Shown: piece by piece, positions 7,081-25,336 of the stretch
How positions within the stretch are numbered: the first letter of the stretch is position 1
Layout: each line of letters opens with the position of its first letter
Assembly (NCBI GenBank): GCA_023511795.1
Contig: JAIMAU010000022.1
Location: 1-33,321, forward strand
Direction: 5' to 3'
Length of the DNA stretch: 33,321 nt
From: Armatimonadota bacterium
GTDB taxonomy: Bacteria > Armatimonadota > UBA5829 > DTJY01
Program-made: the position numbers and the translations under genes
Notes under the pieces: model-generated
The model's database searches: none
Seen by the model: only the letters and a program-made list of their open reading frames with translations
Told to the model about the DNA's origin: nothing

Positions 7081-9299
7081 GAATGCTCTCTACCTGTAAT
7101 GCTGACCCGGCGAACCTCAAGAATATCGCCCAATGTGGCAACGCTATTAATTAATCTGTTCAGGTGGTCAAGGTCATTCACTTCCACAATTAGATCAAAG
7201 TATGCAGTTTTGTCTGGTCGCGATGCAATCTTCGCAGATGAGATGTTTGTTTTAGATTCGCTAAATATCGCCGATATGTCGTTTAACAAGCCCACGCGAT
7301 CAAGTGCTTTGATGAAAAGCCCGGCTTGGAAACGCTCGCCATCTCCATGCGTCCATTCTACTTCTACCATCCTATCGGGTTCCTTTTCGTAATAAATCGC
7401 TATGTTTGGGCAGGATTTCCTGTGCAGTGCTACGCCCCTACCCCGCGTTACGTATCCGACGATTTCGTCACCAGGAATTGGTGCACAACATTTCGCTCGT
7501 CTTATTGCAACACCATCTACCCCTCCTGCAACTATCCCTAATTTTGCCTCAAGAGGGGGACGCTTTCCTGAGACACTTAGTCTTGGAGCCGGCTGTTGTG
7601 TTGCTGTTAACTTATGGATAATGGTCAGAGCCGCAATATGCCCATTGCCAATTGCAGCAAACAAGTCATCTTCGGATTGAAATTTCAGAGATGCTAGTAT
7701 TTTCTGCAGGTTTTCAGGTTTTAGAAAATCGTCAGGATTCAAACCCTGGCGTTCAATTTCTTTTTCAAGAATTTCTCGGCCTTTTGCTACGTTCTCCGCA
7801 TGATAAAGTTTGCGATAAAAGGCCTTGATGCGATTTCGCGCAGTAGATGTCCGTACAAAGTTGAGCCAGTCTCGGCTTGGAACGGCGTTGCTTCTCGATA
7901 TAATTTCAACTATGTCGCCGTTGTTGAATTTGTAATTCAGCGGAACAATTCGTCCGTTAACCTTCGCGCCAACGCAATGATTGCCAAGGTCGCTGTGAAT
8001 CCGGTATGCAAAATCCACTGGCGTTGACCCAGCTGGCAGGTCAATTACGTCGCCTTTGGGCGTAAAAACGAAAACCTGGTCTGAAAAAAGATCTTCGGTT
8101 ACAGAGCGGAGGAACTCATCAGCATCTTTTGAGTCGGCTTGCCACTCGAAGAATTGTTGACGTAGCCAAGAAAGCTTTCTTTCGAACTCATCGGCTGGTT
8201 TTCCGCCTTCTTTATATTGCCAGTGCGCAGCGATTCCAAATTCCGCTGTTTTGTGCATTTCTTTTGTTCGTATTTGTATTTCGAGTGGTTCGCCTTTTGG
8301 CCCAATGACTTTTGTATGAAGAGATTGGTACATGTTTGATTTTGGCTTGCTAATATAGTCATAAAACTTTTCTGGAATTGGCATCCATTGATCATGCACA
8401 ATGCCCAAAACCTGATAGCACTCGGGAACAGTGTCCACAATTATTCGAATTGCTGTCAGGTCATAGATATCTCTGAAATCGATTTCTTGAGACGCCATTT
8501 TTTGGTGTATGCTGTATAGGTGCTTTGGTCGACCTTGAATCTCTGCTTTCAGCCCTTCTCTTTCCAGCCGTGCTCTTATGGTTTCAATCACATTGTTTAG
8601 TTCTTGTTCGCGTTCACGTCTGGTTTTCGATACTTTCTCAACGATATCGGCGTAAGCTTTGGGTTCGGCATATTTGAAGGCGAGATCCTCTAATTGCCAT
8701 TTAATTTGCCATATTCCAAGTCTGTGTGCCAGGGGCGCAAATATTTGTAGGGTTTCGTTGGCTACTTTAAGACGCCGTTCCTCAGGAAGCGCAGACAAGG
8801 TACGCATATTATGGAGACGGTCGGCAAGCTTGATTACCATGACACGGAAATCATGTGCCATGGCAAGAAAGATTTTACGAAGATTTTCAGCGCTCCTTCT
8901 AACTTCCGAGTGGCGTTTTTTTCCTGATTCACCTTCGGTGCTTCGTGGTTCAAAATCTGCTAGCTTGAGCTTTGTAACGCCATCAACAAGCTGGGCTATT
9001 TCTTTGCCAAACTTTTTTTCTATTTCTTCGCGGGTGATATGCCCATCTTCGATGACGTCGTGTAGCAAAGCTGCAGCAATGCTTTTCGCATCCATTTCGA
9101 GCTCCGAAAGGATTGCTGCTGTTGCTACGGGATGGTTAATATATGGTTCCCCAGAGAGACGAAATTGGCCCTCATGAGCTTTTTCGGCAAAAGCATAGGC
9201 TTTACCAACCAGCTCTATATCTTGCTGAGAAGCATATTTTTTCATTTTCTCAACAATGCTTTGTATTGCCGGCGGACACATTGTCTGGTTGGAAGTCAT
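7077..9299 (-). CDS. rel: Bifunctional (p)ppGpp synthetase/hydrolase (Rel/SpoT)
   Basis: The 740-residue protein has the full long-RSH layout. The N-terminal HD hydrolase (NHPVAT at 55-60, HDVIED at 80-85) looks intact. It is followed by the synthetase domain ([29 protein letters not shown]), a TGS domain ([22 protein letters not shown]), a zinc-finger/helical part ([14 protein letters not shown]...HRKSC) and a C-terminal ACT domain. With both catalytic halves carrying recognisable motifs it should make and degrade (p)ppGpp at the ribosome during starvation. It lies 12 bp after recJ and overlaps dtd by four bases. No sign of damage. Confidence 0.97.
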
Positions 9300-9311
9300 T
9301 TTCTTAGGCCT

Positions 9312-11078
9312 TTATGTAGATTTAGATGGTTTCGCATCTTTGAGAACAAGTTGAACGACTTTGAAGCCTGCGTATTCATTTATTTGAACATTATAGCACA
9401 AATCCACTGTAGCTCCAATTTCAAACAATTGCTCGCTTTCTCCCCATCCGAAAGCAATGCATTCTATTTGTTTTGTTTTTTGTGTGGCTAGTTTGAGTTT
9501 TAAATGGTTGCCATTTCCTCCCAGTCGGGTTTTGCTGATAACTCTTACGTCACGGCTCGCAAAAACGGGTTCACGATTGCCGTAGCCGAATGGTTCTAGG
9601 AGCTGGAGTTCTGTGGCAAGGTCATATGTTATTTCATCTATTTCTAGTTCGGCATCCACTTCTATCTGAGGAATAAGGTCTGATTGAGTGAGTATATGGT
9701 CGGCAACTTCATTTATTGCTTCATCAAAGTCAGAGAGTTTTTCTGCCATTATTGATAGGCCTGCAGCCTTTGCATGGCCGCCGCAGCGCTCAAGAAGTTC
9801 GCTGCATTGCATAAGAGCCTTAAAAAGATGAAAAGAGTCTATACTTCGCGCAGAACCAACGCCTTTGTTATTGGCTTCGTCAATGGCTATCAGTACCGCG
9901 GGCCTATGAAAAAGATCAACAATTTTACTTGCAACTACTCCGATTATTCCCGGATGCCATCTTTGCGACGATAGAACTAAAACCTTAGCTTTTTCATCAA
10001 GACAGCGGCCAGTTATCTGCTCTATTGCCTCCAGGGTTATGCGTTCTTGTTCTCTTTGGCGTTCTCGATTTTGCAATTCGAGCATTTCAGCAAGCTTTTC
10101 AGCTTCTGCTTCTTCTTTTGTGAGCAGAAGATTGAGAGCAAGTGAAGCGTCGTCCAAGCGTCCTGCTGCGTTTAGTCTAGGGCATAATATATAGCTAAGC
10201 ATGTGGCTTGTTATTGGTTTTCCGTGAACGCCAGCAACTTTTAAAAGCGCCTGGATTCCAGGTTTTCCCGATCTTGGAATTTCAGTAATTCCGCACTTTG
10301 TGAGCACGCGGTTTTCACCAACAAGAGGTACGATATCAGCTACTGTACCAATTGCTACAAGATCAACAAATCTGCGTCGAAATGCCTCTGTATCATAACC
10401 ACGACCCTTCACAAGTGCCTCTGCAAATTTAAATGCAACTCCAACACCTGCCAGGTCTTTGAATGGATACTGGCAATCACGCTTTCGAGGGTTTATGAGA
10501 GCCAGAGGTTCGGCAATTTTGGGGCCTGGTTCGTGGTGATCTGTAACTATTACATCTATCCCGAGGCGTTTTGCGTATTCTATCTCGTCGATGGCCGAAG
10601 TTCCGCAGTCTACGGTGATTATAAGGTTAGCACCTCGACGAGCTGCTTCTTCTATCCCTGACTGTCTGATGTCGTAACCTTCACGCTGTCTATGAGGAAT
10701 ATACCAACTCACATCTGCACGCAAAGCCCTAAGTACACGGACGAGAAGTGCGGTACTTGTGATTCCGTCAACATCATAGTCTCCATGGACCATGATTTTT
10801 TCACCTGCGTCTAGGGCCTTTATTGTTCTGGCAACTGCGCGGTCGATTCCATCTAAAAGGCTAGGGTCGTGAAGGTTATCCATGCTGGGGTTTAAAAACT
10901 CGCGGGCTTCTCTAGGGGTTCGAATGCCCCTGTTTAATAAAACGCGGCATACTATTCGTGAGGCTGGGACTTGATTGCAGAATTCTTCTTCGATGGCGAG
11001 ATCTGGCTGGATAATCTTCCAATCTTTTGATTTTTTAGCTTTATTGCCAATCATAAAACTTATCTCACACTTTTTCAT
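9312..11078 (-). CDS. recJ: Single-stranded-DNA-specific exonuclease RecJ
   Basis: A DHH/DHHA1 phosphoesterase that degrades single-stranded DNA 5' to 3' in recombination and mismatch repair. Visible metal motifs are HGDYDVDG (residues 98-105), DCGT (157-160) and DHH (180-182). The C-terminal GGHAKAAG motif marks DHHA1 and an OB-like end follows. Length 588 aa is typical. Two starts are possible. ATG at 11078 would leave about 5 nt of leader behind the mapped promoter. ATG at 11054 has a weak GAGA-type ribosome site. It heads the recJ-rel-dtd-TPR-MBL(-nagA) operon. Confidence 0.96.
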   Translation of the reverse strand: MKKCEISFMIGNKAKKSKDWKIIQPDLAIEEEFCNQVPASRIVCRVLLNRGIRTPREAREFLNPSMDNLHDPSLLDGIDRAVARTIKALDAGEKIMVHGDYDVDGITSTALLVRVLRALRADVSWYIPHRQREGYDIRQSGIEEAARRGANLIITVDCGTSAIDEIEYAKRLGIDVIVTDHHEPGPKIAEPLALINPRKRDCQYPFKDLAGVGVAFKFAEALVKGRGYDTEAFRRRFVDLVAIGTVADIVPLVGENRVLTKCGITEIPRSGKPGIQALLKVAGVHGKPITSHMLSYILCPRLNAAGRLDDASLALNLLLTKEEAEAEKLAEMLELQNRERQREQERITLEAIEQITGRCLDEKAKVLVLSSQRWHPGIIGVVASKIVDLFHRPAVLIAIDEANNKGVGSARSIDSFHLFKALMQCSELLERCGGHAKAAGLSIMAEKLSDFDEAINEVADHILTQSDLIPQIEVDAELEIDEITYDLATELQLLEPFGYGNREPVFASRDVRVISKTRLGGNGNHLKLKLATQKTKQIECIAFGWGESEQLFEIGATVDLCYNVQINEYAGFKVVQLVLKDAKPSKST

Positions 11079-11090
11079 TCAACAGAAAAC

Positions 11091-11119
11091 ATCATAGCAT
11101 GCTGGTTTACGTGAAACAA
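11091..11119 (-). promoter_or_regulatory. Sigma70-type promoter of the recJ operon
   Basis: On the minus strand TTGTTT (11114-11119) and TATGAT (11091-11096) are spaced by exactly 17 bp. The predicted transcript starts near 11083, about 5 nt before the first possible recJ ATG. It lies between the secDF terminator and recJ, making recJ the first gene of a separate unit. Confidence 0.65.
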
Positions 11120-11137
11120 CCGATATTCTAGCAAAAA

Positions 11138-11179
11138 TAAAATTAAAAAGCCTACAGATTTTAGAGAAATCTGTAGGCT
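11138..11179 (-). terminator. Rho-independent terminator of secDF
   Basis: A perfect 13 bp stem, AGCCTACAGATTT (11149-11161) with AAATCTGTAGGCT (11167-11179), encloses a 5 nt loop. On the minus strand it is followed by TTTTTAATTTTATTTTT. It begins 26 bp after the secDF stop. Confidence 0.93.
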
Positions 11180-11205
11180 GGAGTTTGTCCTATTTAGAGC
11201 TGAAG

Positions 11206-13701
11206 TTAGAACCTTCTCTTACGCTTTTTGGTTTTCGTTTTGGTTGCAGTCTGAGCCTTGCGCACCGGACTGACTGTAGCCGCTTCTTCATGACCTTCGC
11301 CTTCGGTTTGTTCGGCAAGAGGTTTCAGGTCGAGTGGCTTTGTTGCAGCGCGAGGTTCTTCAGAAGGGACGCCACTAAGAGGCTGCTTGCTTGCAATTCT
11401 CTGCCACAGGACGAGAAGTTGACTTGCATTAAAGATGGAGGAATAGGTACCTGTTATTATACCAATCAATAGTGCCACGTTGAAGTGCTTTAAGCTCGGA
11501 TTGGAGGCACCAAACAATAATAAAGCTATGAGAGTCAACACAACCGTCAATGATGTATTAATTGATCTGGCGAAAGATTGTAGTATGCTCCTATTAACGA
11601 GCGAGTCGAATGTTTCCCCTTTCGAGCGGTGGCGTAGATTCTCGCGGATACGGTCAAATATGACGATTGTGTCATGGTTTGAGAATCCAATGACTGTTAG
11701 CAATGCCGTCACAAATAGGCTATCAATCTCCCAATGGAAGAAGTGGCCAAATATTGCAAAGAGGCCCACTATAACACCTACGTCATGCAAAAGAGCAATG
11801 ACTGCGCATATTCCAAATCGGAATCCGTATGCTAATCCCCCAATGGCAAATCGTGCAGAAAGGTATAGGACAATGCCAAGAGAGGCCAATATTATTGCCT
11901 TGAAGGCGTTCGCAGTTAATTCGCGGCTAATAGTTGGGCCGACTCGCTCGGTTGCGAGTAGTTCAAATTCGCCAACTCTTTCTTTCAGTCCTTTTTGAAG
12001 TGTACGGAATTCTTCCTCGGAGACGTTTTTAGTTCGGATAAAGAATTCCTTTGGATCTTCTTTGGATTTCTGGACCATGCTTCCTCTGAGGCCTAGGTCA
12101 CTGAGTGCTGCCTCAACAGATGCTCGTTCTACTGGCTGCTTAAACTCAAGTTGCATGAGGCTACCACCGGTGAAGTCAATACCTGGCTTCAGCCCGTGCA
12201 TGCCGAAGATGAAGAATAATCCCGGCAGAATTACTGCAGCGCTTATGGCATACCAAGTCCACATCCGTCCAACAACATCTACTTGCCGACCTGTCTGTCC
12301 TGTCACCCACTGTCTTCTCACACCAAACCATGCAGGATGTTGCGCAAATCCGGTGTTTACGATAAGGTGAAGAATTGTTCGCGTAACTACTATTGCGGTG
12401 AACATACTAACAATTACACCGAGGCTAAGGACAATGGCGAATCCTCTGATTGGTCCAGTGCCAAGCCATCCAAGTATTAGACAGGTAATTAGCGTACAGA
12501 CGTTGGAGTCGAAAATGGAGGTGAATGCTCTTGCAAATCCGGCGTCAATTGCCGCGCGAAGCGTTTTTCCGCTTCGTAACTCTTCTTTCAATCGCTCAAA
12601 AATAAGGATATTAGCATCCACGGCCATACCTATTGATATGATGTATGCCGCGATGCCAGGCAGTGTGAGCGTTACAGGTATTATTTTGAACAGTGCAAGA
12701 GTGAGGACTGCATATATTCCAAGTGCAATATCTGCAATTACTCCTGGCAATAAATAGTAGCCGAACATAAAGAGAACGACTAGGCCGAGACCTATGATTC
12801 CTGCAAGTATGCTTCTATCTACAGAATCTTGACCTAGCGTTGCCTCTACCCTTTGGTGCTGCACTATTTCAAGAGGGACAGGTAATGCGCCAGCATTCAA
12901 GAATTCAGCAAGACGTGTGGCTTCCTGAATAGTTCGGAAGCCGCCTTCAATGGTAGCTTTTCCATCAAGAATAGGTACCTTAACGATTGGCGCACTCAAA
13001 ATCTGGTCGTTCAAGACTATTGCCAAGTACTCGCCTACATTACGCCGCGTAAAATCGGCGAACAACTTCCTGCCTTCTCTATCAAACTCGATGGCTACGT
13101 AAACTTCAAATGGAGGCTGAGCCATCTTGTTTGCTTGGGCATTAGGCTTGAGGTTAGCACCAGTGACGATGACTGGGGATTCTGCAAGTACTTTTTCTAC
13201 TGGTACATTCTTTCCGTCGTGGTCCGTAAAGACATACTTGTCATTTCCCTGATCGTCTTGCTCAATCGTCATTTGGTATTTTCCACGGTGGCGCTTGTCT
13301 TGCACCCATCGCAGGTGGCGAAATTCAAGCCTTGCCGTTGACTTAAGTTGTTCTATGGCTTGGTCTACGTTTGGAATGTCGGGAATTTCAACGACCACCT
13401 GATCAATACCCTTAGGCTGAATCAGGGGTTCGGATACGCCGAAAGCATCAACGCGGTTGCGAATGACACGCACTATGCCATTTAGGTGCTTATAACTCCA
13501 TTTTTCACCTTTAGGTAGCTTATCAGTTTCTGCGCGGAGTACGACACGTACTCCACCTGCAAGGTCTAAGCCTTTCTTTAAATGCCAAGGTTTAGTAATT
13601 TGCTTGCCGTTTTCCGTTACTGTCACATGTTGCTTTCCAAGAATGAAAGCAGATGCTGCAACCAATACAATAACAAGAGCAAGGATATGTTTATGTCTCA
13701 A
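11206..13701 (-). CDS. secDF: SecD-SecF fused protein-export subunit
   Basis: One 831-residue chain carries both halves of the proton-driven Sec accessory complex. The SecD half has the N-terminal membrane helix, GLDLAGGVRVVL, a large periplasmic P1-type region, then a helix bundle with DANILIFERLKEELRSG. The SecF half begins with a new membrane helix and GLKPGIDFTGGS at about residue 510, and contains VIFDRIRENLR. About twelve membrane helices are expected. The C-terminal tail is cytoplasmic and strongly basic (KTKTKKRKRRF). The start is TTG at 13701 behind GGGAGG (12 nt away), preceded by a near-perfect promoter and followed by a clean terminator, so it is probably transcribed alone as well as from tgt. 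yajC, the usual neighbour, is absent here. Confidence 0.96.
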   Translation of the reverse strand: MRHKHILALVIVLVAASAFILGKQHVTVTENGKQITKPWHLKKGLDLAGGVRVVLRAETDKLPKGEKWSYKHLNGIVRVIRNRVDAFGVSEPLIQPKGIDQVVVEIPDIPNVDQAIEQLKSTARLEFRHLRWVQDKRHRGKYQMTIEQDDQGNDKYVFTDHDGKNVPVEKVLAESPVIVTGANLKPNAQANKMAQPPFEVYVAIEFDREGRKLFADFTRRNVGEYLAIVLNDQILSAPIVKVPILDGKATIEGGFRTIQEATRLAEFLNAGALPVPLEIVQHQRVEATLGQDSVDRSILAGIIGLGLVVLFMFGYYLLPGVIADIALGIYAVLTLALFKIIPVTLTLPGIAAYIISIGMAVDANILIFERLKEELRSGKTLRAAIDAGFARAFTSIFDSNVCTLITCLILGWLGTGPIRGFAIVLSLGVIVSMFTAIVVTRTILHLIVNTGFAQHPAWFGVRRQWVTGQTGRQVDVVGRMWTWYAISAAVILPGLFFIFGMHGLKPGIDFTGGSLMQLEFKQPVERASVEAALSDLGLRGSMVQKSKEDPKEFFIRTKNVSEEEFRTLQKGLKERVGEFELLATERVGPTISRELTANAFKAIILASLGIVLYLSARFAIGGLAYGFRFGICAVIALLHDVGVIVGLFAIFGHFFHWEIDSLFVTALLTVIGFSNHDTIVIFDRIRENLRHRSKGETFDSLVNRSILQSFARSINTSLTVVLTLIALLLFGASNPSLKHFNVALLIGIITGTYSSIFNASQLLVLWQRIASKQPLSGVPSEEPRAATKPLDLKPLAEQTEGEGHEEAATVSPVRKAQTATKTKTKKRKRRF

Positions 13702-13789
13702 TTTTTCTGTAATCCTCCCTAAGTCACCTTATGGCGCTTTTTGGGGCGCGGGTCTATTAATCATTCGAACCGGGCCATATAACAGGGCA

Positions 13790-13818
13790 ATTATACAGAT
13801 GTGCCGAGATATTGTCAA
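13790..13818 (-). promoter_or_regulatory. Perfect-consensus sigma70 promoter of secDF
   Basis: On the minus strand TTGACA (13813-13818), a 17 bp spacer and TATAAT (13790-13795) match the housekeeping consensus at all twelve positions. The transcript would carry a leader of about 80 nt before the TTG start at 13701. Confidence 0.88.
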
Positions 13819-13851
13819 ATAAAATGATTTTACTTCTTAATTCTTGAAAAA

Positions 13852-14514
13852 TCATAGGTCAATTCCATTAATCACAAGCTTAAACTTACAGCCTAGCACG
13901 TCTGCCGCTCTCCGACACATAACCATTCTAAGCACAAAAATTTCGAAGTATTCAGTTACGCTGATTGATGTTGTATCTACCGTTAATTCTAGGCTAATAA
14001 TTTTGTTTTCTGAATCAACTCGCAAGTATGACTTTTGTACAGCATGGTTTACCCTGTCGTGAATATCGAATGTCTGAGGATTTGGATTTTGCACACGAGA
14101 AAAGTGTACATCGGACTTGTCGCCAATGATTACAGCTGCGGTGACTTTGTTTATCGGAAATCCATTATCTTCCTCATGATTGCCAATTGCTCCCATGATA
14201 ACCGCAATTTCTGCCGGTGGCATTTTGAGGGAATTAAGGATGCTTTCTGCTAGAACTGCTCCCGTTTCTTGGTGATTCTCGCGGTTAATAACATTTCCAA
14301 TATCGTGGAGATAACCAGCTATTGCGGCTAGTTCTGCTTCGCGTGAGCCATTACCAAGCTGACGAATTATACCTCGTGATACACCTGCAACGATGCCAGC
14401 GTGCCGAAAACCATGTTCGGTATAACCTATTGCTGCCATTTGCTCGTTTGCCTTCTCTATATAGGTTCTAACACGCGAGTCACGCTTTACGTCCCGCAGG
14501 CAAATTTGCCCCAT
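13852..14514 (-). CDS. HD-domain phosphohydrolase
   Basis: A 220-residue protein with a well-formed HD domain: His34 and His38 (EHGFRHAG), His70-Asp71 (YLHDIGN), His81, then NHEEDNG and GDKSDVHF, which provide the later metal ligands. Members cleave phosphoester bonds in nucleotides or nucleotide messengers; the substrate here is not evident. A roughly 75-residue C-terminal extension (after the HD core) is not recognised. It begins three bases after the tgt stop, so it is translated with tgt, and sits between tgt and secDF where yajC is often found. No signal peptide or membrane helix. Confidence 0.82.
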   Translation of the reverse strand: MGQICLRDVKRDSRVRTYIEKANEQMAAIGYTEHGFRHAGIVAGVSRGIIRQLGNGSREAELAAIAGYLHDIGNVINRENHQETGAVLAESILNSLKMPPAEIAVIMGAIGNHEEDNGFPINKVTAAVIIGDKSDVHFSRVQNPNPQTFDIHDRVNHAVQKSYLRVDSENKIISLELTVDTTSISVTEYFEIFVLRMVMCRRAADVLGCKFKLVINGIDL

Positions 14515-14517
14515 GTA

Positions 14518-15688
<1,171 letters not shown>

Positions 15689-15818
15689 ATCTTTATGTGT
15701 TGAGAGTGTATCTTGAAATAGTTCCCCATAGAATCAGGTATCTCATGCAGGCGAATGAGCAATTCAAGCATGGAACAATCCAAATGCGAGGCAATTAATT
15801 TGCGATCCTCCCCACCAG

Positions 15819-15901
15819 CGGATGGGAATGGGGCCGGGGGTTGTTTCCTCCTCCGCGCCGGATAAGCGCCGTTCCATTCGGCTCCCGGTCCCACCCTACC
15901 G
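15819..15901. other. GC-rich imperfect hairpin of unknown identity
   Basis: Within an AT-rich intergenic stretch, about 80 bases are strikingly GC-rich. An 11 bp stem pairs 15830-15840 with 15882-15892 (with G-T wobbles). It is extended outward by GGG/CCC and CGG/CCG pairs across small loops. The internal part holds a GCGC/GCGC mini-hairpin (15855-15858 with 15866-15869) and an alternative GAATGG/CCATTC pairing. There is no T-run on either side. It could be a structured RNA, a relic of a small mobile element, or an mRNA-end structure. I could not match it to a known RNA class. Confidence 0.4.
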
Positions 15902-16054
15902 TTATTATTATGTTCGGCATCTGTTGTTTATTCACAAACTTTGAACAAGGCCACGTAAATCCCAATCTAGAATAACAAAATGCTGTCATGATTTAAAGGC
16001 GTTTCGAGTAGCCATATTAATGCCCAGAATTTATACTAGTTTTTTGTTAGATGC

Positions 16055-16083
16055 TTGACAATTCTTTGGTGGCATGATATCTT
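16055..16083 (+). promoter_or_regulatory. Sigma70 promoter driving a short non-coding transcript
   Basis: TTGACA (16055-16060), a 17 bp spacer and TATCTT (16078-16083). No open frame follows before a terminator about 150 bp downstream. Confidence 0.72.
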
Positions 16084-16089
16084 ATATTT

Positions 16090-16243
16090 GAAATAACTAA
16101 ATGAGCAGGTGAGCAATTCGTTGTAACCTGACGTCTTCATCCATAGAAGTACATTGTACTCACCGGTTAATTAATACCTGCACTTGTTATTTGTCAACCT
16201 CCCTTATCAGAAAGCCGCCGGATTTACTCGGCGGTTTCTTTAT
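16090..16243 (+). ncRNA. Candidate small RNA of about 150 nt, 6S-like rod shape
   Basis: The interval is bounded by a strong promoter and an intrinsic terminator and has no usable open frame. It folds into a rod. AAATAAC (16091-16097) pairs with GTTATTT (16186-16192). After an asymmetric loop, GCAGGT (16105-16110) pairs with ACCTGC (16176-16181). A wide bubble follows, then TAACC (16124-16128) with GGTTA (16165-16169). Small hairpins (AGTAC-ATT-GTACT, CTTC...GAAG) cap it. A closing stem, large internal bubble and terminal stem is the layout of 6S RNA, but I see no diagnostic sequence. Another regulatory RNA is equally possible. The transcript existence is well supported; its class is inference. 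Confidence 0.55.
16212..16243 (+). terminator. Rho-independent terminator of the small RNA
   Basis: CCGCCG (16215-16220) pairs with CGGCGG (16229-16234) around an 8 nt loop. The stem is extended by A-T and G-T pairs and followed by TTTCTTTATT. Confidence 0.88.
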
Positions 16244-16280
16244 TCTGAACGCATATTACCCTATTTGCACATTAGAATGT

Positions 16281-16308
16281 TTGAAACTTTGATTTTTAAG
16301 GGTAGTAT
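16281..16308 (+). promoter_or_regulatory. Putative promoter of the KGG stress-protein gene
   Basis: TTGAAA (16281-16286), a 16 bp spacer and TAGTAT (16303-16308), followed by a leader of about 48 nt to the ATG at 16363. Confidence 0.5.
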
Positions 16309-16362
16309 TATGAAAAGTTGCTTGGTTATATGGCGTTAATGAAGCGCAGAGGGGTGGGATTG

Positions 16363-16548
16363 ATGGCTTCTTCCAAGCGTGGCTTTGCCTCGATGGATCC
16401 AGAGAAACAAAGGGAAATTGCTAGCAAAGGTGGCAAGGCTGCACATGCGAAGGGCACTGCCCATGAATGGACCAGCCATGAAGCTAGGCAAGCTGGACGC
16501 AAGGGTGGACTTATGAGCCATGGTGGCGGGCGTAAGAGTAGCAAATAG
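16363..16548 (+). CDS. KGG-repeat general stress protein
   Basis: A 61-residue, very hydrophilic, Lys/Gly/Ala/Arg-rich protein with two copies of the KGG motif (EIASKGGKAAHAKG and EARQAGRKGG), as in Bacillus GsiB, enterobacterial YciG and plant LEA-5 proteins. Such proteins are linked to desiccation, osmotic or general stress; no enzymatic activity is known. The family alignment starts at MASSKRGFASMD, and AGAGGGGTGGG lies just upstream, so I chose the ATG at 16363 over earlier in-frame starts at 16330 and 16339. It ends 11 bp from the convergent feoB stop. Confidence 0.87.
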   Translation: MASSKRGFASMDPEKQREIASKGGKAAHAKGTAHEWTSHEARQAGRKGGLMSHGGGRKSSK

Positions 16549-16559
16549 TCCGCAAATAT

Positions 16560-18407
16560 TTACATCATAGTTGATGCCACGAGCCCACCGATAAGGAAGG
16601 AAGCAACGAATGTTCCAAGCCAGATTGCCACCGCCTCGCCCCATCCTCGCTCCTTAAAGAGAATCATCATTGAGGCAACGCAGGGAACAAATAGAGTCAT
16701 CACGATAAGCGATACCAAGGTTTGATTATTAGTGAGGGGCATTGATGCAAACCCAGCAGCTCCAAGGTCACGCCTAATCATTCCCATAACTATGGCATTT
16801 GCCGCCTCTTTTGGTAGCCCCAACCAGGCAACTGTTAATGGTTCGAGTAGGCGTTGCCATATTTTAAGCAATTTCGTTGCTTCCAATACTCCGACAAGAC
16901 CCGAACCAATTAGAAACCAAGGGTATGCTTCCAGCAAAAAATGAACTATGCGAATCCATGTTTTTCTTATTAAGTTTTCAATCTTTGGAAGTCTCACTGG
17001 TGGAAGGTCTATGATAAGTGGCGACGATTTTCCAGGTAAAAAGTGGTTGAGGATTGTCCCTACTGCAACAAAGCATGCGCCAATTACCATAATGTACACT
17101 AGCGTGTGAATTAATCCAATCCTAGCGGCTAGCATAGCTATAACGCCAAGCTGAGCTGAACAAGGAATTGTGAAATTTAGGATTGAGGTTGCAATTGTTT
17201 TTTCACGCGTTGTTCCAAGAAGTCGGGTGGTAATCGTTGCCATTGTAATGCAACCAAATCCCAGGATAATTGGAATTATTGCGCGGCCATTTAGTCCAAT
17301 CCAATTGAGCAATCGGTCAGTTAGCGCCGCCAATCTTGGTAAGTATCCGGTGTCTTCAAGGAATGATAGAACGATATAAAACCCAGCGACCAATGGCAGA
17401 AGTAGACCAACCAAATAGGTTATACCTGTTGTCAATATTCCAAAACGTCCAACAAGAATAATCCACGCTGGTGAATTAGCAGGTAAAACATAGCTAATAA
17501 TCTTTCTGATGGCAGGTTCCCAATATCCCTGCATTACAGTTTTCTCTGTAAATCCGACGAGCTTTTGTGCAATTAGGACACCTATTAACTGGTAAACAAG
17601 AAATAAAACAATCATTAAAATTGGAATACCCGTTAAGGGGTTCAGCATTAATCTGCCAAGAACATGGGTAAATCTACGGCTGGGTCCGGTTTCACTAACC
17701 ACCTGGTCGGCGATATCATTTGCACGAGCCCGTCTCCGAAGGTAAACATCTTCTCGGAGTGAACCTGGTGATAAGCCATGGCGGCTGGATATTACCTCGT
17801 CGCCCTCTAATATTAACACCGCTTCTCGCTGAGAACAGTTTAGTTTTCCAGCATGCTTCTGTACAAAAGGATCAGATTTTCCGACACACGCCTTATCTAT
17901 AGATAGGCGAATTTTGTCGAGCCCTACATGTCTAGTTGCAATTGTCGGAATTACGGGAACGCCAAGGAGTTTAGACATTTTTTCTGTATCAATTTTTATG
18001 CCTTGTTCCTTTACCTCATCCATAAAGTTCAAGGCAACAATCATTGGGATGCCCATATCAGCAAGCTGCAGAGTGAGGAATAGGTCTCTTTCTAGATGAA
18101 GGGCATTGACGATGTTTATAACGATGTCAGCCTGAAGGATAATATCACGCGCAGTTCGCTCTTCATCATTCCATGAGGAGACGCTATAAATACCAGGAGT
18201 GTCAATAATAAGGTTGTTTCCAGAGCGGCCAGTATAGATTTCGATTGTAGTGCCTGGGTAATTTGAGACTTCAGCATACACGCCTGTGAGATAAGCAAAG
18301 AAAACCGATTTTCCTACATTTGGATTGCCGACAAGAGCAATTTTTCGCGTTGTGGCTTCTATTCGAGCCCAAGGTGGCATTCTTTGCCGATGTCGCGGTT
18401 TTCTCAC
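16560..18407 (-). CDS. feoB: Ferrous iron transporter FeoB
   Basis: A 615-residue GTP-gated Fe(II) importer of the inner membrane. The N-terminal G-protein domain shows G1 GNPNVGKS (27-34), the G2 TT of YPGTTIE (51-57), G3 DTPG (69-72) and G4 NFMD (127-130). A helical spacer follows, then the membrane domain with both cysteine-containing Gate motifs (FTIPCSAQLG and FVPCVASMM). It is shorter than the roughly 770-residue E. coli protein, mainly at the C-terminus; the family core is present. The start is GTG (18405-18407), sharing one base with the feoA TAG. It is transcribed with fur and feoA and is presumably repressed by Fur when iron is plentiful. Confidence 0.95.
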   Translation of the reverse strand: MRKPRHRQRMPPWARIEATTRKIALVGNPNVGKSVFFAYLTGVYAEVSNYPGTTIEIYTGRSGNNLIIDTPGIYSVSSWNDEERTARDIILQADIVINIVNALHLERDLFLTLQLADMGIPMIVALNFMDEVKEQGIKIDTEKMSKLLGVPVIPTIATRHVGLDKIRLSIDKACVGKSDPFVQKHAGKLNCSQREAVLILEGDEVISSRHGLSPGSLREDVYLRRRARANDIADQVVSETGPSRRFTHVLGRLMLNPLTGIPILMIVLFLVYQLIGVLIAQKLVGFTEKTVMQGYWEPAIRKIISYVLPANSPAWIILVGRFGILTTGITYLVGLLLPLVAGFYIVLSFLEDTGYLPRLAALTDRLLNWIGLNGRAIIPIILGFGCITMATITTRLLGTTREKTIATSILNFTIPCSAQLGVIAMLAARIGLIHTLVYIMVIGACFVAVGTILNHFLPGKSSPLIIDLPPVRLPKIENLIRKTWIRIVHFLLEAYPWFLIGSGLVGVLEATKLLKIWQRLLEPLTVAWLGLPKEAANAIVMGMIRRDLGAAGFASMPLTNNQTLVSLIVMTLFVPCVASMMILFKERGWGEAVAIWLGTFVASFLIGGLVASTMM

Positions 18408-18616
18408 TACCTCACCTCTATTTGTCGAGCAAGGTCTCTGCCAATTGCAATTTCTTGACGTCTCGACTTCAAAACTACCGGTCCAAACGGGATTTTTTCA
18501 ATGCATACTACGCGGCTTCCCTCGGCAATCCCCAGCCTAATGAGTTGTGAACGTACGGCATTGGGAACCGAGATAATCTGTACTTCCGAACCAGTTGTTG
18601 CTTGATCAAGGGTCAT
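18407..18616 (-). CDS. feoA: FeoA, SH3-like partner of FeoB
   Basis: A 69-residue FeoA-domain protein (IRLGIAEGSRVVCIEKIPFGPVVLKSRRQEIAIGRDLARQIEV is the family core, given here as the region spanning the last two-thirds). It supports Fe(II) uptake by FeoB at the cytoplasmic face. ATG at 18616 is preferred because AAGGA lies eight bases before it. An in-frame ATG at 18643 would overlap fur. Stop TAG shares one base with the feoB GTG, giving tight coupling. Confidence 0.93.
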   Translation of the reverse strand: MTLDQATTGSEVQIISVPNAVRSQLIRLGIAEGSRVVCIEKIPFGPVVLKSRRQEIAIGRDLARQIEVR

Positions 18617-18627
18617 ATTTAATTCCT

Positions 18628-19059
18628 TTACGAATTCGCGCATTCAGAACATAGGCCCATAATTCGAAGTTCATGAGTATGCGCTTTGAACGAATATTGC
18701 TCACAAATTTTCTGCTGAAGCTCTTCTATCGTGTTGTCATTAAACTCGAAAGTTCGCCCACAAGCTGTGCAAATCAAATGGTCATGATGACCATGGCCAA
18801 GAACGTGCTCGTAATGCCCATGTCTTTCGCCAAAATCGACCTCCCTAAGTAAACCGCTATTGACGAGAAGAGGAAGTGTGCGATATACACTTGCACGTGA
18901 GACGCGTTTTCCACGTTTTCGAAGACCAGAAACAATATCATCTGCTTCAAAATGCTGATGGTTTCTGAAAACTTCTTCGAGGATTAGCTTGCGTTCGCGG
19001 GTTGTCTTCATTCCCTCTTCTCTTAGGAAATGTCTGAATTTTGCTTCTTCGTCGGTCAT
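18628..19059 (-). CDS. fur: Fur-family metal-dependent repressor
   Basis: A 143-residue Fur-type regulator. The N-terminal winged helix includes TRERKLILEEVF and the recognition helix RVSRASVYRTLPLLVNSGLL. The dimerisation half has the His-rich metal segment GHGHHDHLIC and two C-x2-C zinc pairs (CTAC and CSEC). The ATG at 19059 is chosen because GGAG lies six bases upstream and the family begins there. A longer frame to 19110 would run through the operator. It heads the fur-feoA-feoB operon and its promoter is overlapped by a long palindrome with a Fur-type core, so autoregulation is likely. Fur versus PerR or Zur cannot be decided from motifs alone, but the feoAB linkage favours iron. Confidence 0.92.
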   Translation of the reverse strand: MTDEEAKFRHFLREEGMKTTRERKLILEEVFRNHQHFEADDIVSGLRKRGKRVSRASVYRTLPLLVNSGLLREVDFGERHGHYEHVLGHGHHDHLICTACGRTFEFNDNTIEELQQKICEQYSFKAHTHELRIMGLCSECANS

Positions 19060-19069
19060 TTTTATCTCC

Positions 19070-19104
19070 AAATTGCAATTGAGACTCAGTCTCAATTGCA
19101 ATTT
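19070..19104. promoter_or_regulatory. 35 bp perfect palindrome with Fur-box core
   Basis: Arms AAATTGCAATTGAGACT (19070-19086) and AGTCTCAATTGCAATTT (19088-19104) are perfect inverted copies around a single C. The core TGAGACT-C-AGTCTCA has the 7-1-7 shape of Fur boxes. It overlaps the fur -10 box and the transcription start, the expected place for a repressor. The TTGCAAT outer arms are longer than the usual 19 bp Fur box. Confidence 0.82.
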
Positions 19105-19130
19105 TACCATTATTTTTCATGGTTCGTCAA
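19101..19130 (-). promoter_or_regulatory. Sigma70 promoter of fur-feoA-feoB
   Basis: On the minus strand TTGACG (19125-19130), an 18 bp spacer and TAAAAT (19101-19106). The -10 overlaps the outer edge of the palindromic operator. Confidence 0.65.
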
Positions 19131-19423
19131 TATTTATTTTGCTAAGCCGTTTTATTATTACAATTTAAAGCAAAATTAACGGTTTCTTACCCCATTTTTA
19201 ATCCACCGCTGCTAATCTATTTTACTGGAAAAAAGGGGCGAGTAACGCAAGTTTGTAAGGCTGGTCGCTTGTGGAGCGGTCTTTCATTGCGAAACTCACT
19301 TCATGTGTGATAAAATTTTGAACGACCATATTCGGAGGCATGGGGAACAAAAATTAGAGATGCAATTGTAGACAAATCCCTTGCGTGCTTATTGTTTTTG
19401 AAACGTAGAAAGGAAAGATCGCA
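19131..19423. other. Divergent intergenic region fur / hydrogenase operon
   Basis: No open frame or known RNA is visible. It contains a plausible promoter for the hydrogenase genes (listed separately) and, just before the first gene, the ribosome site GAAAGGAAAG. I looked for a Rex-type operator and a second Fur box and found neither in convincing form. Confidence 0.5.
19287..19316 (+). promoter_or_regulatory. Putative promoter of the hydrogenase operon
   Basis: TTGCGA (19287-19292), an 18 bp spacer and TAAAAT (19311-19316). The leader would be about 100 nt long before the ATG at 19424. Confidence 0.45.
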
Positions 19424-19792
19424 ATGAAGTCTCTTGATGAGCTACATAGAATTCGAGAAAAGGCCCAGCAAGATTTAAGAATTCGAGATAGCAAGCAGAG
19501 AGCAAAAGTTATAGTTGCTATGGGGACTTGCGGCATTGCAGCTGGCGCGAAAAGCGTATTAAATGCAATTTTGGACGAACTAGACAAGCGCGGAATCAAA
19601 GATGTATTGGTTGTCCAGGCTGGTTGCAAAGGCTTATGTTCGCAGGAACCATTAGTTGATGTTTTTAGAGCCGGCGAGCCGGGAGTTACTTATGGCTACG
19701 TAACTCCTGAAAGAGCGCGAACGATTGTTAGTCAGCACCTCGTAAATGGTAACATCGTCGGTGAATGGGTAGTCACAACGACCGAAGCCTAG
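19424..19792 (+). CDS. HndB-like thioredoxin-fold [2Fe-2S] subunit of hydrogenase
   Basis: A 122-residue protein with a charged N-terminal helix and a thioredoxin-like ferredoxin domain: VAMGTCGIAAGA (Cys36) and VQAGCKGLCSQEP (Cys68, Cys72), then a PERARTIV tail. It resembles HndB, an accessory iron-sulfur subunit of NAD(P)-linked [FeFe]-hydrogenases such as HndABCD. Only three cysteines are present, one fewer than in NuoE-type domains, so either a non-Cys ligand completes the cluster or the cluster is absent. It is the first gene of the hydrogenase operon, 36 bp before the NuoE-like gene, and is preceded by AAAGGAAAG. It presumably passes electrons between the diaphorase subunit and HydA. 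Confidence 0.82.
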   Translation: MKSLDELHRIREKAQQDLRIRDSKQRAKVIVAMGTCGIAAGAKSVLNAILDELDKRGIKDVLVVQAGCKGLCSQEPLVDVFRAGEPGVTYGYVTPERARTIVSQHLVNGNIVGEWVVTTTEA

Positions 19793-19828
19793 CAGTTGCT
19801 GGGGAAACATTCCTATGGAGGTGTTAAT

Positions 19829-20332
19829 TTGAAATCTACGCAAAAGTCTGCAGAGCGCTTTTCCCACGTAAACCTTGAAGATGTGAAGAGCATCGTCGCA
19901 AAGCACGATGCATTTAGAGGCAATCTACTGCCAATACTTCACGAAGTCCAGGCAAAATATGGCTATTTGCCAGAAAGTGCATTAGAAATAATTGCCGATG
20001 AACTTTGCATTCCTGTAAGCGAGGTATATGGTACGGCGACATTCTATACGTTGTTTTCCATAGTACCTAAAGGCACGCATGTAATCAGGGTATGCAATAG
20101 CGCTCCGTGCCATATTGGAGGGTCAAAAGCCATACTTTCGGCAATCAAGGATGAGCTTGATATTGAACCAGGAGAGGTGACAGAGGATGGTCATTTTTCC
20201 CTCGAACTAACAAGCTGTCTCGGTGTCTGTGGTGTTGGCCCAGTTATTATGATTGATGATGATGTTTACGGCAACCTGACACCTGAGAAGATACCGGAGA
20301 TCCTTGCAAGATACAGGCAGGAGGAAAGCTAA
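19829..20332 (+). CDS. hydC: NuoE-like [2Fe-2S] subunit of electron-bifurcating hydrogenase
   Basis: A 167-residue NuoE/HydC/HndA homologue with a helical N-terminal part (PILHEVQAKYGYLPESAL) and a thioredoxin-like ferredoxin domain. Its four cysteines are in VCNSAPCHIGG and SCLGVCGVGP. The start is TTG at 19829, chosen because GGAGGTG (19817-19823) sits at ideal distance; upstream in-frame codons lack one. The stop directly abuts the ATG of the NuoF-like gene. Cytoplasmic partner of HydB and HydA; it carries electrons from or to the NADH-binding subunit. Confidence 0.92.
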   Translation: MKSTQKSAERFSHVNLEDVKSIVAKHDAFRGNLLPILHEVQAKYGYLPESALEIIADELCIPVSEVYGTATFYTLFSIVPKGTHVIRVCNSAPCHIGGSKAILSAIKDELDIEPGEVTEDGHFSLELTSCLGVCGVGPVIMIDDDVYGNLTPEKIPEILARYRQEES

Positions 20333-21961
20333 ATGCCATTCTACAGATCGCATATTTTAATTTGCAATGCTACTCCATGTGTACTTAAAGGAAGTAGAGC
20401 AGTTGAGGCTGCTCTCAAAGAGGAAATACGCTTAAACGGATTGGAAGACGAAATCCGCGTTGTAGAAACAGGTTGCCTCGGCATATCTGAGTGCGGACCA
20501 GTAATAGTCATCTATCCTGAGGGCACAATCTATTGCAATTTGACTCCTCAGGATGCAGGGGAAATAGTTAGGGAGCACCTTCTGAACGGCCGAATTGTTA
20601 AGAGATTGCTTTATCGCGCTCCAGAGTTGGTTAAGAAAGCCTTTAAAGCACCAGAGATACCCTTTGTAGCACGTCAGCAAAGGATAGTTCTTCGAAATGC
20701 TGGCGTTATAAACCCTGAATCAATTGAGGAATATATCGCAAATAATGGCTATGAGGCACTAGGCAAGGCGCTCACCTCAATGTCGCCCGAAAATGTCATA
20801 GAAGAAGTAAAGAAATCAAATCTTAGAGGCCGTGGGGGCGCGGCGTTTCCCACAGGAATCAAGTGGGAGGCAACGAGGAATGCAACCGGTCAGCCGAAGA
20901 CCGTAATCTGCAATGCAGATGAGGGCGAGCCCGGAAACTTCAAAGACCGGCTAATAATGGAAGGCGACCCTCATAGCATAATTGAAGCGATGATAATTGC
21001 TGGATATGCTGTTGGTGCTAACAAAGGCTATATTTATGTGAGAGGCGAGTACAAGCAATCTATTGAAAAATTGAACAAGGCTATTGAAGATGCGAAACAA
21101 ATGAACCTTCTTGGCGAAAACATCTTAAATAGCGGTTTCAATTTCGATATCGAAGTTTTCAAGGGTGCCGGCGCTTATGTTTGTGGAGAGGAAACAGCGC
21201 TCATTGAGTCGCTCGAAGGGCGGAGAGGTGAATCAATGGTAAAGCCACCTTATCCGCCGACCCAAGGACTTTGGGGAGCGCCTACGGTTATAAATAACGT
21301 TGAGACATTAGCCAATATACCTCAAATTATCTTAAATGGTGCCGATTGGTTTAACAGTATTGGCACGGAAAGAAGCAAAGGTACAAAGATATTCGCGCCG
21401 TGTGGCGATGTTCTCCAGCCTGGCGTCATCGAAGTTCCGTTTGGAACTACTATGCGAGAAATTCTTTACGAGATGGCTGGTGGAACTAAGTCTGGCAAGG
21501 ACATCAAGGCTGTTTTAATTGGTGGGCCGTCAGGCATTTGTGTTGGTAAAGAGAGTCTCGACAGGCGTTTTGCATATGAAGATCTTCCTCCGGGTGCGGG
21601 CGCTCTTATTGTAATAGATGAAGACAAGTGCATTGTTGACCTTGTACACAACTGCCTAGAGTTTTTCGTTCATGAATCGTGTGGGCAGTGCATACCATGC
21701 CGCGAAGGCACGAAGCGAATGCTTGAAATTGCGAGCAATTGGATTAATGGTGAGGGAAAGCCTGGGGATGTAGAACTAATGCAAGAGCTTGCGAATAACC
21801 TAGCTGTTTCATCTAGGTGTGGGCTTGGCCAGTTCGCGGGAACGGCATTCGCAACTAGCTATAAATTGTTTAGCGATGAGTATCTTGCCCATGTAGCTGA
21901 CCGAGAATGTCCAACCGGCGTATGCACAATGGGCAACGGAAAGGATGGAAAAGATGGGTAA
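20333..21961 (+). CDS. hydB: NuoF-like NADH-binding flavoprotein subunit (HydB/HndC)
   Basis: A 542-residue diaphorase subunit. Residues 1-95 form a thioredoxin-like [2Fe-2S] domain with Cys11, Cys16, Cys48 and Cys54. Residues about 150-445 are the FMN/NADH-binding core, with LRGRGGAAFPTGIKWE and GAGAYVCGEETALIESLEG. The [4Fe-4S] motif Cys450-x2-Cys453-x2-Cys456-x39-Cys496 follows. A further CPTGVC lies near the end. The two-cluster ferredoxin extension found at the C-terminus of Thermotoga HydB is absent, so it is closer to HndC. In the trimeric enzyme NADH and reduced ferredoxin are oxidised together to make H2. It overlaps the hydA frame by a few bases. Confidence 0.94.
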   Translation: MPFYRSHILICNATPCVLKGSRAVEAALKEEIRLNGLEDEIRVVETGCLGISECGPVIVIYPEGTIYCNLTPQDAGEIVREHLLNGRIVKRLLYRAPELVKKAFKAPEIPFVARQQRIVLRNAGVINPESIEEYIANNGYEALGKALTSMSPENVIEEVKKSNLRGRGGAAFPTGIKWEATRNATGQPKTVICNADEGEPGNFKDRLIMEGDPHSIIEAMIIAGYAVGANKGYIYVRGEYKQSIEKLNKAIEDAKQMNLLGENILNSGFNFDIEVFKGAGAYVCGEETALIESLEGRRGESMVKPPYPPTQGLWGAPTVINNVETLANIPQIILNGADWFNSIGTERSKGTKIFAPCGDVLQPGVIEVPFGTTMREILYEMAGGTKSGKDIKAVLIGGPSGICVGKESLDRRFAYEDLPPGAGALIVIDEDKCIVDLVHNCLEFFVHESCGQCIPCREGTKRMLEIASNWINGEGKPGDVELMQELANNLAVSSRCGLGQFAGTAFATSYKLFSDEYLAHVADRECPTGVCTMGNGKDGKDG

Positions 21962-23729
21962 GAAAATAAACATGACAATCAATGGCCAAAAGGTTGTGGC
22001 TGAAGAAGGAATGACTATTCTTCAAGCGGCGCAACAAGCGGGTATCTATATTCCTACTCTTTGCTATCATCCAGATTTAAGCGTAGAAGGTGTATGTAGA
22101 ATCTGCGTTGTGGAAATAGAAGGCCAAAGGTTATTGTGCCCGTCGTGTGCATATCCAGTATCCGATGGTTTGAATGTCAACACACACTCTCCAAAAGTTC
22201 GAGAAGCGCGGCGCATGATAGTAGAACTTTTGCTAGCGAACCATCCGCAGGAATGCCTTACTTGTTCGGCAAACCAGAAATGTGAACTCCAGAAGTTTGC
22301 GAAAGAACTAGGAATTCAGGAGGTTCGTTTCCAAGGCGAGCGCCATAACCACAAAAAAGACGAATCAAATCCTTCGATAATTAGGAATCCTGAAAAGTGC
22401 ATTCTCTGCAAGAGATGTGTTCGGGTATGCCATGAAATCCAAACTGTTGGCGCCCTTTTTGCCCACAACCGCGGCTGGCATACTGAAATTGGTCCTCCTT
22501 TCAATAAAGAACTAGCAGAGGTCGTTTGTGTTTATTGTGGTCAGTGCATTGACCGATGTCCAACCGGTGCACTGAAGGCCAAGGATCCGGCCCATGAAAT
22601 TTGGCAAGCCATTGATGATCCTAATAAGTTTGTGATTGTGCAGGTTGCGCCGGCTGTTCGGGCAACAATTGGTGAAGAGTTCGGCATGCCGCCTGGTAGC
22701 TTGGTCACTGGCAAAATGGTAACAGCACTGCGCATGCTTGGATACGACAAGGTATTTGATACGGACTTTGCAGCTGACCTAACAATAATGGAGGAAGGCC
22801 ATGAATTAATCCAGCGGTTGAAGAAAGGCGGAACTCTGCCAATGATTACCTCTTGTAGCCCAGGCTGGATTAAGTTCATTGAACATTTCTATCCCGATCA
22901 GCTACCACATCTTTCAACATGCAAATCGCCCCAGCAAATGTTTGGTGCGATAGCAAAGACATATTATGCACAAAAGATAGGCATCGATCCTGCAAAAATG
23001 GTTGTGGTTTCAATAATGCCTTGTACTGCAAAGAAATTTGAGGCTGAAAGGCCCGAGATGCATGCGAGTGGGTATAAAGACGTTGACTATGTGCTGACAA
23101 CTCGTGAAGCAGCTGGAATGATCAAGGAGGCAGGTATAGATCTTCCAAACTTGCCTGATAGTGAGTTTGACGCACCTTTGGGTATATCTACTGGCGCCGG
23201 AGTAATTTTTGGAGCAACAGGAGGTGTTATGGAGGCGGCGCTGAGAACTGCATATGAAGTCATCACCGGCAAACCGTTGGAAAATATTGAAATTACGGCC
23301 GTTCGCGGAATGGAAGGTGTGCGAGAGGCAACGGTTGATATAGATGGGGTTAAAGTCAAGGCTGCAGTAGCGCACGGCCTAGGGAATGCTAGAAAGCTAC
23401 TTGAACAAATAAAAGAGGGCAAATCGGACCATCAGTTCATAGAAATAATGGCGTGTCCTGGTGGTTGCCTTGGCGGTGGCGGTCAGCCATTCCCGACATC
23501 GCCTGAGATACGGAAAGCTCGGGCAGAGGCAATTTATCTTGCAGACCGCTTAATGCCGATTAGGAAATCTCATGAGAACCCGGCAATTATCGAGCTATAC
23601 GAGACATTCCTTAAAGAGCCCTTAGGTGAAATGTCGCACAAGCTTCTGCATACTCACTATACTCGAAGGGACAAAAAGTTAGCACCTAAGAGTAAAGAAT
23701 CTAAGCAGCAGTTAACTCATTCAACATAG
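21954..23729 (+). CDS. hydA: [FeFe]-hydrogenase catalytic subunit, multi-cluster, bifurcating type
   Basis: Numbering from the ATG at 21954. The N-terminal [2Fe-2S] domain has Cys37, Cys48, Cys51 and Cys65. It is followed by the His-ligated [4Fe-4S] motif (His97, Cys101, Cys104, Cys110) and two ferredoxin clusters (149-159 and 192-202). The H-cluster domain has TSCSPGW (Cys301), MPCTAKKFE (Cys357) and ACPGGCLGGGGQP (Cys501, Cys505). All four H-cluster cysteines are present; Ser replaces the second Cys of the classical TSCCP proton-relay motif. At about 591 aa it lacks the extra C-terminal [2Fe-2S] of Thermotoga HydA. ATG at 21954 fits AAGG nine bases upstream; ATGs at 21945 and 21972 are alternatives. 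Cytoplasmic, assembled by HydG and HydE downstream. Confidence 0.95.
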   Translation: MGKKINMTINGQKVVAEEGMTILQAAQQAGIYIPTLCYHPDLSVEGVCRICVVEIEGQRLLCPSCAYPVSDGLNVNTHSPKVREARRMIVELLLANHPQECLTCSANQKCELQKFAKELGIQEVRFQGERHNHKKDESNPSIIRNPEKCILCKRCVRVCHEIQTVGALFAHNRGWHTEIGPPFNKELAEVVCVYCGQCIDRCPTGALKAKDPAHEIWQAIDDPNKFVIVQVAPAVRATIGEEFGMPPGSLVTGKMVTALRMLGYDKVFDTDFAADLTIMEEGHELIQRLKKGGTLPMITSCSPGWIKFIEHFYPDQLPHLSTCKSPQQMFGAIAKTYYAQKIGIDPAKMVVVSIMPCTAKKFEAERPEMHASGYKDVDYVLTTREAAGMIKEAGIDLPNLPDSEFDAPLGISTGAGVIFGATGGVMEAALRTAYEVITGKPLENIEITAVRGMEGVREATVDIDGVKVKAAVAHGLGNARKLLEQIKEGKSDHQFIEIMACPGGCLGGGGQPFPTSPEIRKARAEAIYLADRLMPIRKSHENPAIIELYETFLKEPLGEMSHKLLHTHYTRRDKKLAPKSKESKQQLTHST

Positions 23730-23773
23730 CAAAGCGTTTTTTCTGCAGAAGAGGTCAAATTAAATAACTCAAA

Positions 23774-23932
23774 ATGAGCAAAGCCTTGGCAGTGATGTTT
23801 GATGGGCGCTTTGGTGATAAGCTGAGGCTTTGCTCACCAAAGAATTCATATTTTAATAAGCTAGAAATTTCATGCTCCGGATGCCAGCGATTTCAAAACA
23901 AAGTATTCTCGCCGGGTAAAAGATATGCTTGA
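23774..23932 (+). CDS. Possible 52-residue Cys-containing small protein before hydG
   Basis: An open frame between hydA and hydG would encode a basic peptide with three cysteines, including CSGCQRF, and MFDGRFGDKLRLC near the start. Its TGA overlaps the hydG start by eight bases, a typical coupling distance, and it fills most of the gap. Against it: no good ribosome site (AGAGG lies 22 bases away), and its 5' part coincides with a long inverted repeat that could be an RNA element. I do not recognise a family. It could be a genuine small maturation or regulatory peptide, or chance. Confidence 0.3.
   Translation: MSKALAVMFDGRFGDKLRLCSPKNSYFNKLEISCSGCQRFQNKVFSPGKRYA
23775..23836 (+). repeat. 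12 bp perfect inverted repeat in the hydA-hydG gap
   Basis: TGAGCAAAGCCT (23775-23786) and AGGCTTTGCTCA (23825-23836) pair perfectly around 38 nt. There is no T-run behind it, so it is not an intrinsic terminator. It may be an mRNA processing or stabilising structure between the structural and maturation genes, or a regulatory leader of hydG. Confidence 0.6.
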
Positions 23933-25313: not shown

Positions 25314-25336
25314 GGCCACTTTGTTAGCTCGAAGCT

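Follow-up and report, generated by a model that had tools for sequence, protein, structure and literature searches.

Does the gap between tgt and a small stress gene of an Armatimonadota bacterium hold a gene for a small RNA and, if so, is its product 6S RNA? We analysed a window of 33,321 nucleotides (the whole stretch of DNA considered here) from an assembly of 3.09 Mb in 35 contigs. The interval in question, 16055–16243, lies between tgt (14518–15648, minus strand; PF01702) and a plus-strand gene for a KGG stress-repeat protein, beyond which lie feoB, which is convergent, and then fur. A sequence-only reading had proposed that it encodes an unannotated small RNA, from promoter to terminator, folded as a rod with a central bubble as in 6S RNA; the RNA would be either 6S or, failing that, a novel one beside a stress gene. 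In the open-licence literature on Armatimonadetes/Armatimonadota, we found no study of 6S RNA, of Hfq or small RNAs, or of SigB-type promoters; the available portion of PMC8978632 names 6S RNA solely in the title of a reference. The features of the locus are as follows.

16055–16083, plus strand: promoter, with TTGACA (16055–16060), a 17-nt spacer and an extended −10, TGA-TATCTT (−10 at 16078–16083); 10 of 12 consensus positions, TG present
16090–16243, plus strand: predicted small RNA of ~154 nt, inferred from promoter and terminator
16091–16192, plus strand: multibranch body, with a closing helix of 16091–16097 and 16186–16192 (AAATAAC/GTTATTT), present in the best fold of each genome compared
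16193–16207, plus strand: unpaired C-rich segment GUCAACCUCCCUUAU, the proposed seed, complementary to strong Shine-Dalgarno sequences
16212–16237, plus strand: intrinsic terminator stem-loop (CCGCCG/CGGCGG), with a T-rich tail to 16243
16279–16304, plus strand: SigB-type promoter (GTTTGA...GGGTA) of the KGG gene, 3′ of the RNA terminator; boundary evidence, outside the RNA
16363–16548, plus strand: KGG stress-repeat protein (PF10685), 61 aa

The start of the predicted RNA was placed about 7 nt past the −10 and its end at the T-run. Both signals named by the sequence-only reading are present, the TTGACA-N17-TATCTT promoter having an extended −10 TG besides its consensus matches and the CCGCCG/CGGCGG stem being followed by its T-rich tail. 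Taken singly, such sites are not unusual: in 14500–17800, promoter-like sites number 11 where shuffles average 7.0 (s.d. 2.9), and terminator-like sites number 2 where they average 3.3 (s.d. 1.9). Scanning for the two as a pair (a promoter of at least 10/12 with an extended −10, then a GC-rich terminator 60–260 nt on) found it once in the window, both strands included, and not at all in 30 shuffles of the whole window or 1000 shuffles of 15649–16362. Because these criteria were chosen after the site was seen, the shuffles make it look somewhat rarer than it is. As a pair, the promoter and terminator exceed chance expectation.

A stretch of a second genome of the same genus (G001) aligns to positions 8861–24859 of the window with 94.5% identity. 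As a proxy for neutral sites we took the fourfold sites in ten coding sequences nearby, of which 287 of 1885 differ (15.2%). Alignment of the homologous intergenic region, suggested earlier as a check, revealed an RNA body (16084–16208) conserved beyond this rate, with 3 substitutions in 125 nt (P = 2.3e-6, by a binomial that assumes site independence). Other parts of the aligned 16 kb, most of it coding, are as well conserved: of its 15875 windows of 125 nt, 2230 (14%) have three differences or fewer. The −35 (0/6 changes) and the extended −10 (16075–16083; 0/9) are invariant, the conservation of such short elements not being significant on its own (P 0.23 and 0.37), and the spacer (16061–16077) has 4 changes in 17. 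The terminator region has 5 substitutions in 34 nt plus indels, and in G001 it retains a perfect 7-bp GC stem with a longer T-run. Such a combination, in which the hexamers and the body are kept while the spacer drifts and the terminator changes in sequence but still folds, is, as judged from this alignment, the pattern of a noncoding transcription unit. For two genomes of one genus, the comparison points to selection on the RNA beyond neutral drift.

The earlier claim that the body has no open frame holds in that no conserved coding frame was found. Frames of at least 20 aa touching the interval number two on the plus strand (51 aa, 16184–16339, and 33 aa, 16191–16292), both of which extend beyond the terminator and differ in G001, and one on the minus strand (34 aa, 16036–16140), which in G001 keeps its start but has changed residues and a stop elsewhere (42 aa). 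The locus thus combines its own promoter, an intrinsic terminator and the lack of a conserved coding frame, which as sequence features mark an independent small-RNA gene, and we consider it likely, though not certain, that 16055–16243 holds such a gene. The alternative offered earlier, a new small RNA beside a stress gene, is backed by the pairing of promoter and terminator, by conservation measured against fourfold sites and by the KGG neighbour (PF10685).

The other part of the proposal, that the RNA is 6S, failed. A search of the whole window with 4227 Rfam families brought none to its threshold, and the 6S model had no match within 15900–16400 even up to E = 10. Weak scores of other families in that region (TUG1_1, AaHKsRNA41 twice and RUF1; E 1.8 to 8.8) were taken as chance. 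The genome's only match to canonical 6S RNA (RF00013) is on another contig (G000:C2:143182-143376), at 90.5 bits against a gathering score of 46.4. Across the 31 genomes searched, this one included, 26 have a 6S match at E <= 0.001 and 25 have one above the cut-off. The candidate RNA shares a similar length and an intergenic location with 6S RNA but differs from it in the absence of a covariance-model match, with the true 6S encoded elsewhere; it is not canonical 6S RNA.

Nor does folding support the predicted rod. The full transcript folds with z = −1.84 (8 of 200 shuffles as low), which is largely due to the terminator because the body alone is average: without the terminator, it reaches −17.9 kcal/mol, and 443 of 1000 dinucleotide shuffles are as low. 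The genome's real 6S RNA, folded as a control, gave z = −3.17. A 6S rod of closing stem, central bubble and apical stem was not found; instead, competing multibranch folds were predicted, with 11 structures within 0.5 kcal/mol of the best. The steadiest part is the 7-bp closing helix, with pair probabilities of 0.61–0.80 in both genomes, where an A-to-G change at 16096 in G001 retains the pair as G-U. The interior has several near-equal folds, and in G001 a second A-to-G substitution (16151) shifts the preference to a different one. Positions 16193–16207 are identical in sequence in both genomes and unpaired in the MFE, centroid and MEA folds of each, each base having a paired probability of 0.18 or less. 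Position 16208, immediately after, is changed in G001, where it enters the terminator stem.

The KGG gene most likely starts at the ATG at 16363, a longer frame from 16339 being unsupported because its ATG is ATA in G001. The motif GTTT-N14..18-GGGTA lies no more than 200 nt upstream of the conserved KGG start at 15 of 16 KGG loci of the class, where shuffles lead one to expect 0.08; the lone locus without it (in G009) is itself a weak match (E = 1.6e-4). Because the motif had first been spotted at seven of these loci (those of G002, G003 and five other class genomes), the pattern was not chosen blind; the remaining loci confirm it. It also stands before KGG genes in class genomes where our search did not find the RNA. 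According to the part of PMC9847131 available, the B. subtilis SigB consensus is GTTTAA-N15(+/-2)-GGGTAT, and gsiB is among the genes with a near-consensus site. The genome encodes a sigma factor of the SigB/F/G type (G000:C8:87708-88379; 289.5 bits, cut-off 234.35); among 14 control genomes, 1 had a match above the cut-off. These findings suggest that this Armatimonadota class has a stress regulon of SigB-like type. The KGG gene is probably under stress-sigma control and the small RNA under a housekeeping-type promoter, making two units rather than a leader and its gene.

We also observed a GC-rich conserved intergenic element at 15732–15922, with 1 change in 176 nt (15747–15922) against the 15.2% fourfold rate. 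A copy occurs in G003, of the same family (L044, about 1433–1600, matching window positions 15732–15900), directly upstream of the KGG gene, with E = 2.2e-6 by blastn and 7.0e-36 by a model that was built including this copy. The element is confident in 3 of 28 class genomes and weak in five others (E 0.02 to 0.1) and in G025 (E 0.004). The source alignment (A7) of model R2 has unequal ends. The element has no Rfam match, its weak scores (E 0.12 to 2.5, for two animal microRNA families and D12-methyl RNA) being far below the cut-offs, and its consensus folds on the two strands have similar scores (−39.0 and −42.0 kcal/mol). It is possibly another structured RNA. Elsewhere in the window, a near-consensus promoter, TTGACA-N18-TATACT, lies on the minus strand at 15659–15688, just upstream of tgt, and genes at 19424–26377 resemble, by eye, a putative multi-subunit [FeFe]-hydrogenase cluster with HydE/HydG-like radical-SAM maturases.

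The small RNA itself has a narrow distribution. At E <= 0.01, a covariance model built from the two sequences found only those two, of one genus: 2 of 28 class genomes and, under stricter filters, 2 of 291 phylum genomes. Outside the genus, blastn of the body against the 28 class genomes gave only matches of 14–26 bases (best E 0.036), taken as chance. The model also gave six weak matches in the class (E 0.013 to 2.6), one of which (L156, in G001) is the same locus on the opposite strand. Three were inspected and judged to be chance: L153 falls on the end of a response-regulator gene and on an unrelated terminator, L154 lies antisense within a long open frame, and L157, which is from the window's own genome, is flanked by two prepilin-like genes and shows no terminator by eye. 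The other two of the six are L155 (G006) and L158 (G022). A 22-mer of the body had 0 exact matches among named genome contigs, a collection that may omit the window's own genome and very near ones. Viral contigs gave 0 matches for two patterns, and phages and plasmids likewise gave none, near genomes possibly having been left out. In G003, only 108 nt separate the conserved element from the KGG start, compared with 466 nt in the window, and the small RNA is therefore absent from that place. The simpler reading is that the genus gained the RNA; it may also have been lost elsewhere.

What might such an RNA do? Our main reading, to which we give a probability of about 0.5, is that the locus is a stand-alone gene with a housekeeping-type extended −10 promoter and an intrinsic terminator, whose ~154-nt RNA is most likely trans-acting. 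Transcription would begin at the promoter at 16055 and end at the terminator, and the 7-bp helix would close the body and hold its ends. The unpaired CAACCUCCCUUAU segment before the terminator would then pair with G-rich ribosome-binding sites and cover Shine-Dalgarno sequences, so that translation of target mRNAs would be blocked or their decay changed. That the C-rich segment works in this manner on ribosome-binding sites is a tentative proposal, which we hold less firmly than the existence of the gene itself. Hfq, which is encoded (G000:C1:408248-408439; PF17209, 100.6 bits), would be the probable partner. The sequence supports the gene structure, a conserved body, its closing helix, the unpaired segment and the presence of hfq; transcription, Hfq binding, trans action and any target are inferred.

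No target stood out in our searches. With up to one mismatch, AAGGGAGGTTGA occurs at 16 sites in the genome, one of them the RNA locus itself, compared with 18 for a reversed-pattern control; by eye, three of the 16 are at plausible ribosome-binding sites, and some others precede short frames. Duplex energies with the 26 gene starts of the window were no better than with shuffled starts (z from −1.6 to +1.05). The KGG start had the lowest raw energies (−32.4 kcal/mol for the whole RNA, −14.3 with the C-rich segment), yet its z was −0.43.

RoxS of B. subtilis and RsaE of S. aureus are one kind of RNA. By features alone, the candidate can be likened to them: each has its own promoter and an intrinsic terminator, is short and carries an unpaired C-rich segment suited to G-rich sites. 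The candidate matches no Rfam family and belongs to an Armatimonadota lineage. It has one C-rich segment, whereas the available part of PMC5419742 describes four C-rich regions in RoxS, and C-rich regions as used there for mRNA pairing.

Several other explanations of the locus were weighed. The order of promoter, RNA, terminator and KGG gene on one strand, together with the several near-equal folds of the body, would suit a 5′ leader or attenuator, in which transcription from 16055 stops at the terminator or reads through it in response to a signal, as in riboswitches and other terminator-controlled leaders with a same-strand gene downstream. Here, however, the downstream gene has its own SigB-type promoter beyond the terminator (16279–16304), kept where the RNA was not found, and for this reason the RNA is probably not a KGG leader. 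We saw no clear antiterminator either, the longest ungapped pairing of the body with the terminator arms being 5 bp (5′ arm) and 6 bp (3′ arm), G-U pairs included, and the terminator has changed in G001 without matching changes in the body; a leader is accordingly improbable in our view. Far more remote is the possibility that the genome has a second 6S-like RNA here, one that has diverged and binds RNA polymerase. B. subtilis has two 6S RNAs in one organism, and the candidate resembles 6S in length and in having a closing helix with an open interior, but the lack of any 6S score here up to E = 10, the strong single match elsewhere in the genome and a body as stable as its shuffles, set against the real 6S control, all speak the other way. 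Just as far-fetched is a small protein encoded within the interval: the minus-strand frame does overlap it, but neither the end of that frame nor its residues are conserved, and the conserved block reaches past the frame's start, to 16207.

Two further explanations accept the transcript and dispute its role. It may bind a protein, as a decoy or sponge (of CsrA type, or titrating Hfq), or another small RNA, rather than the ribosome-binding sites of mRNAs; with Hfq encoded and no mRNA target standing out, this deserves more credit than a leader, but we think it unlikely, because the body has by eye no repeated protein-binding motif and a role in pairing would suit the conserved C-rich segment better. 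It may instead be a promoter–terminator pair with a functionless product, transcriptional noise or a relic, as its confinement to one genus and the empty target search would allow. Conservation of the body well beyond fourfold sites argues against this, and we rate it as slightly less probable even than the leader. A stand-alone gene for a trans-acting RNA is the reading that we prefer.

That reading can be carried further, on a more doubtful footing than the pairing mechanism itself. The locus may encode a lineage-specific, Hfq-assisted RNA that was gained in one genus between an older element and a SigB-controlled gene, and that would repress many mRNAs through one anti-Shine-Dalgarno-like segment. 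The analysis adds a well-delimited, testable candidate small-RNA gene to a phylum for which we found no small-RNA study in the open-licence literature, and shows that calling this locus 6S RNA, tempting as it is, would be a mistake. A class-wide SigB-type promoter before a stress gene makes the general stress response of the lineage directly testable. If the fuller proposal is true, the RNA would offer a first worked-out case of post-transcriptional control in Armatimonadota.
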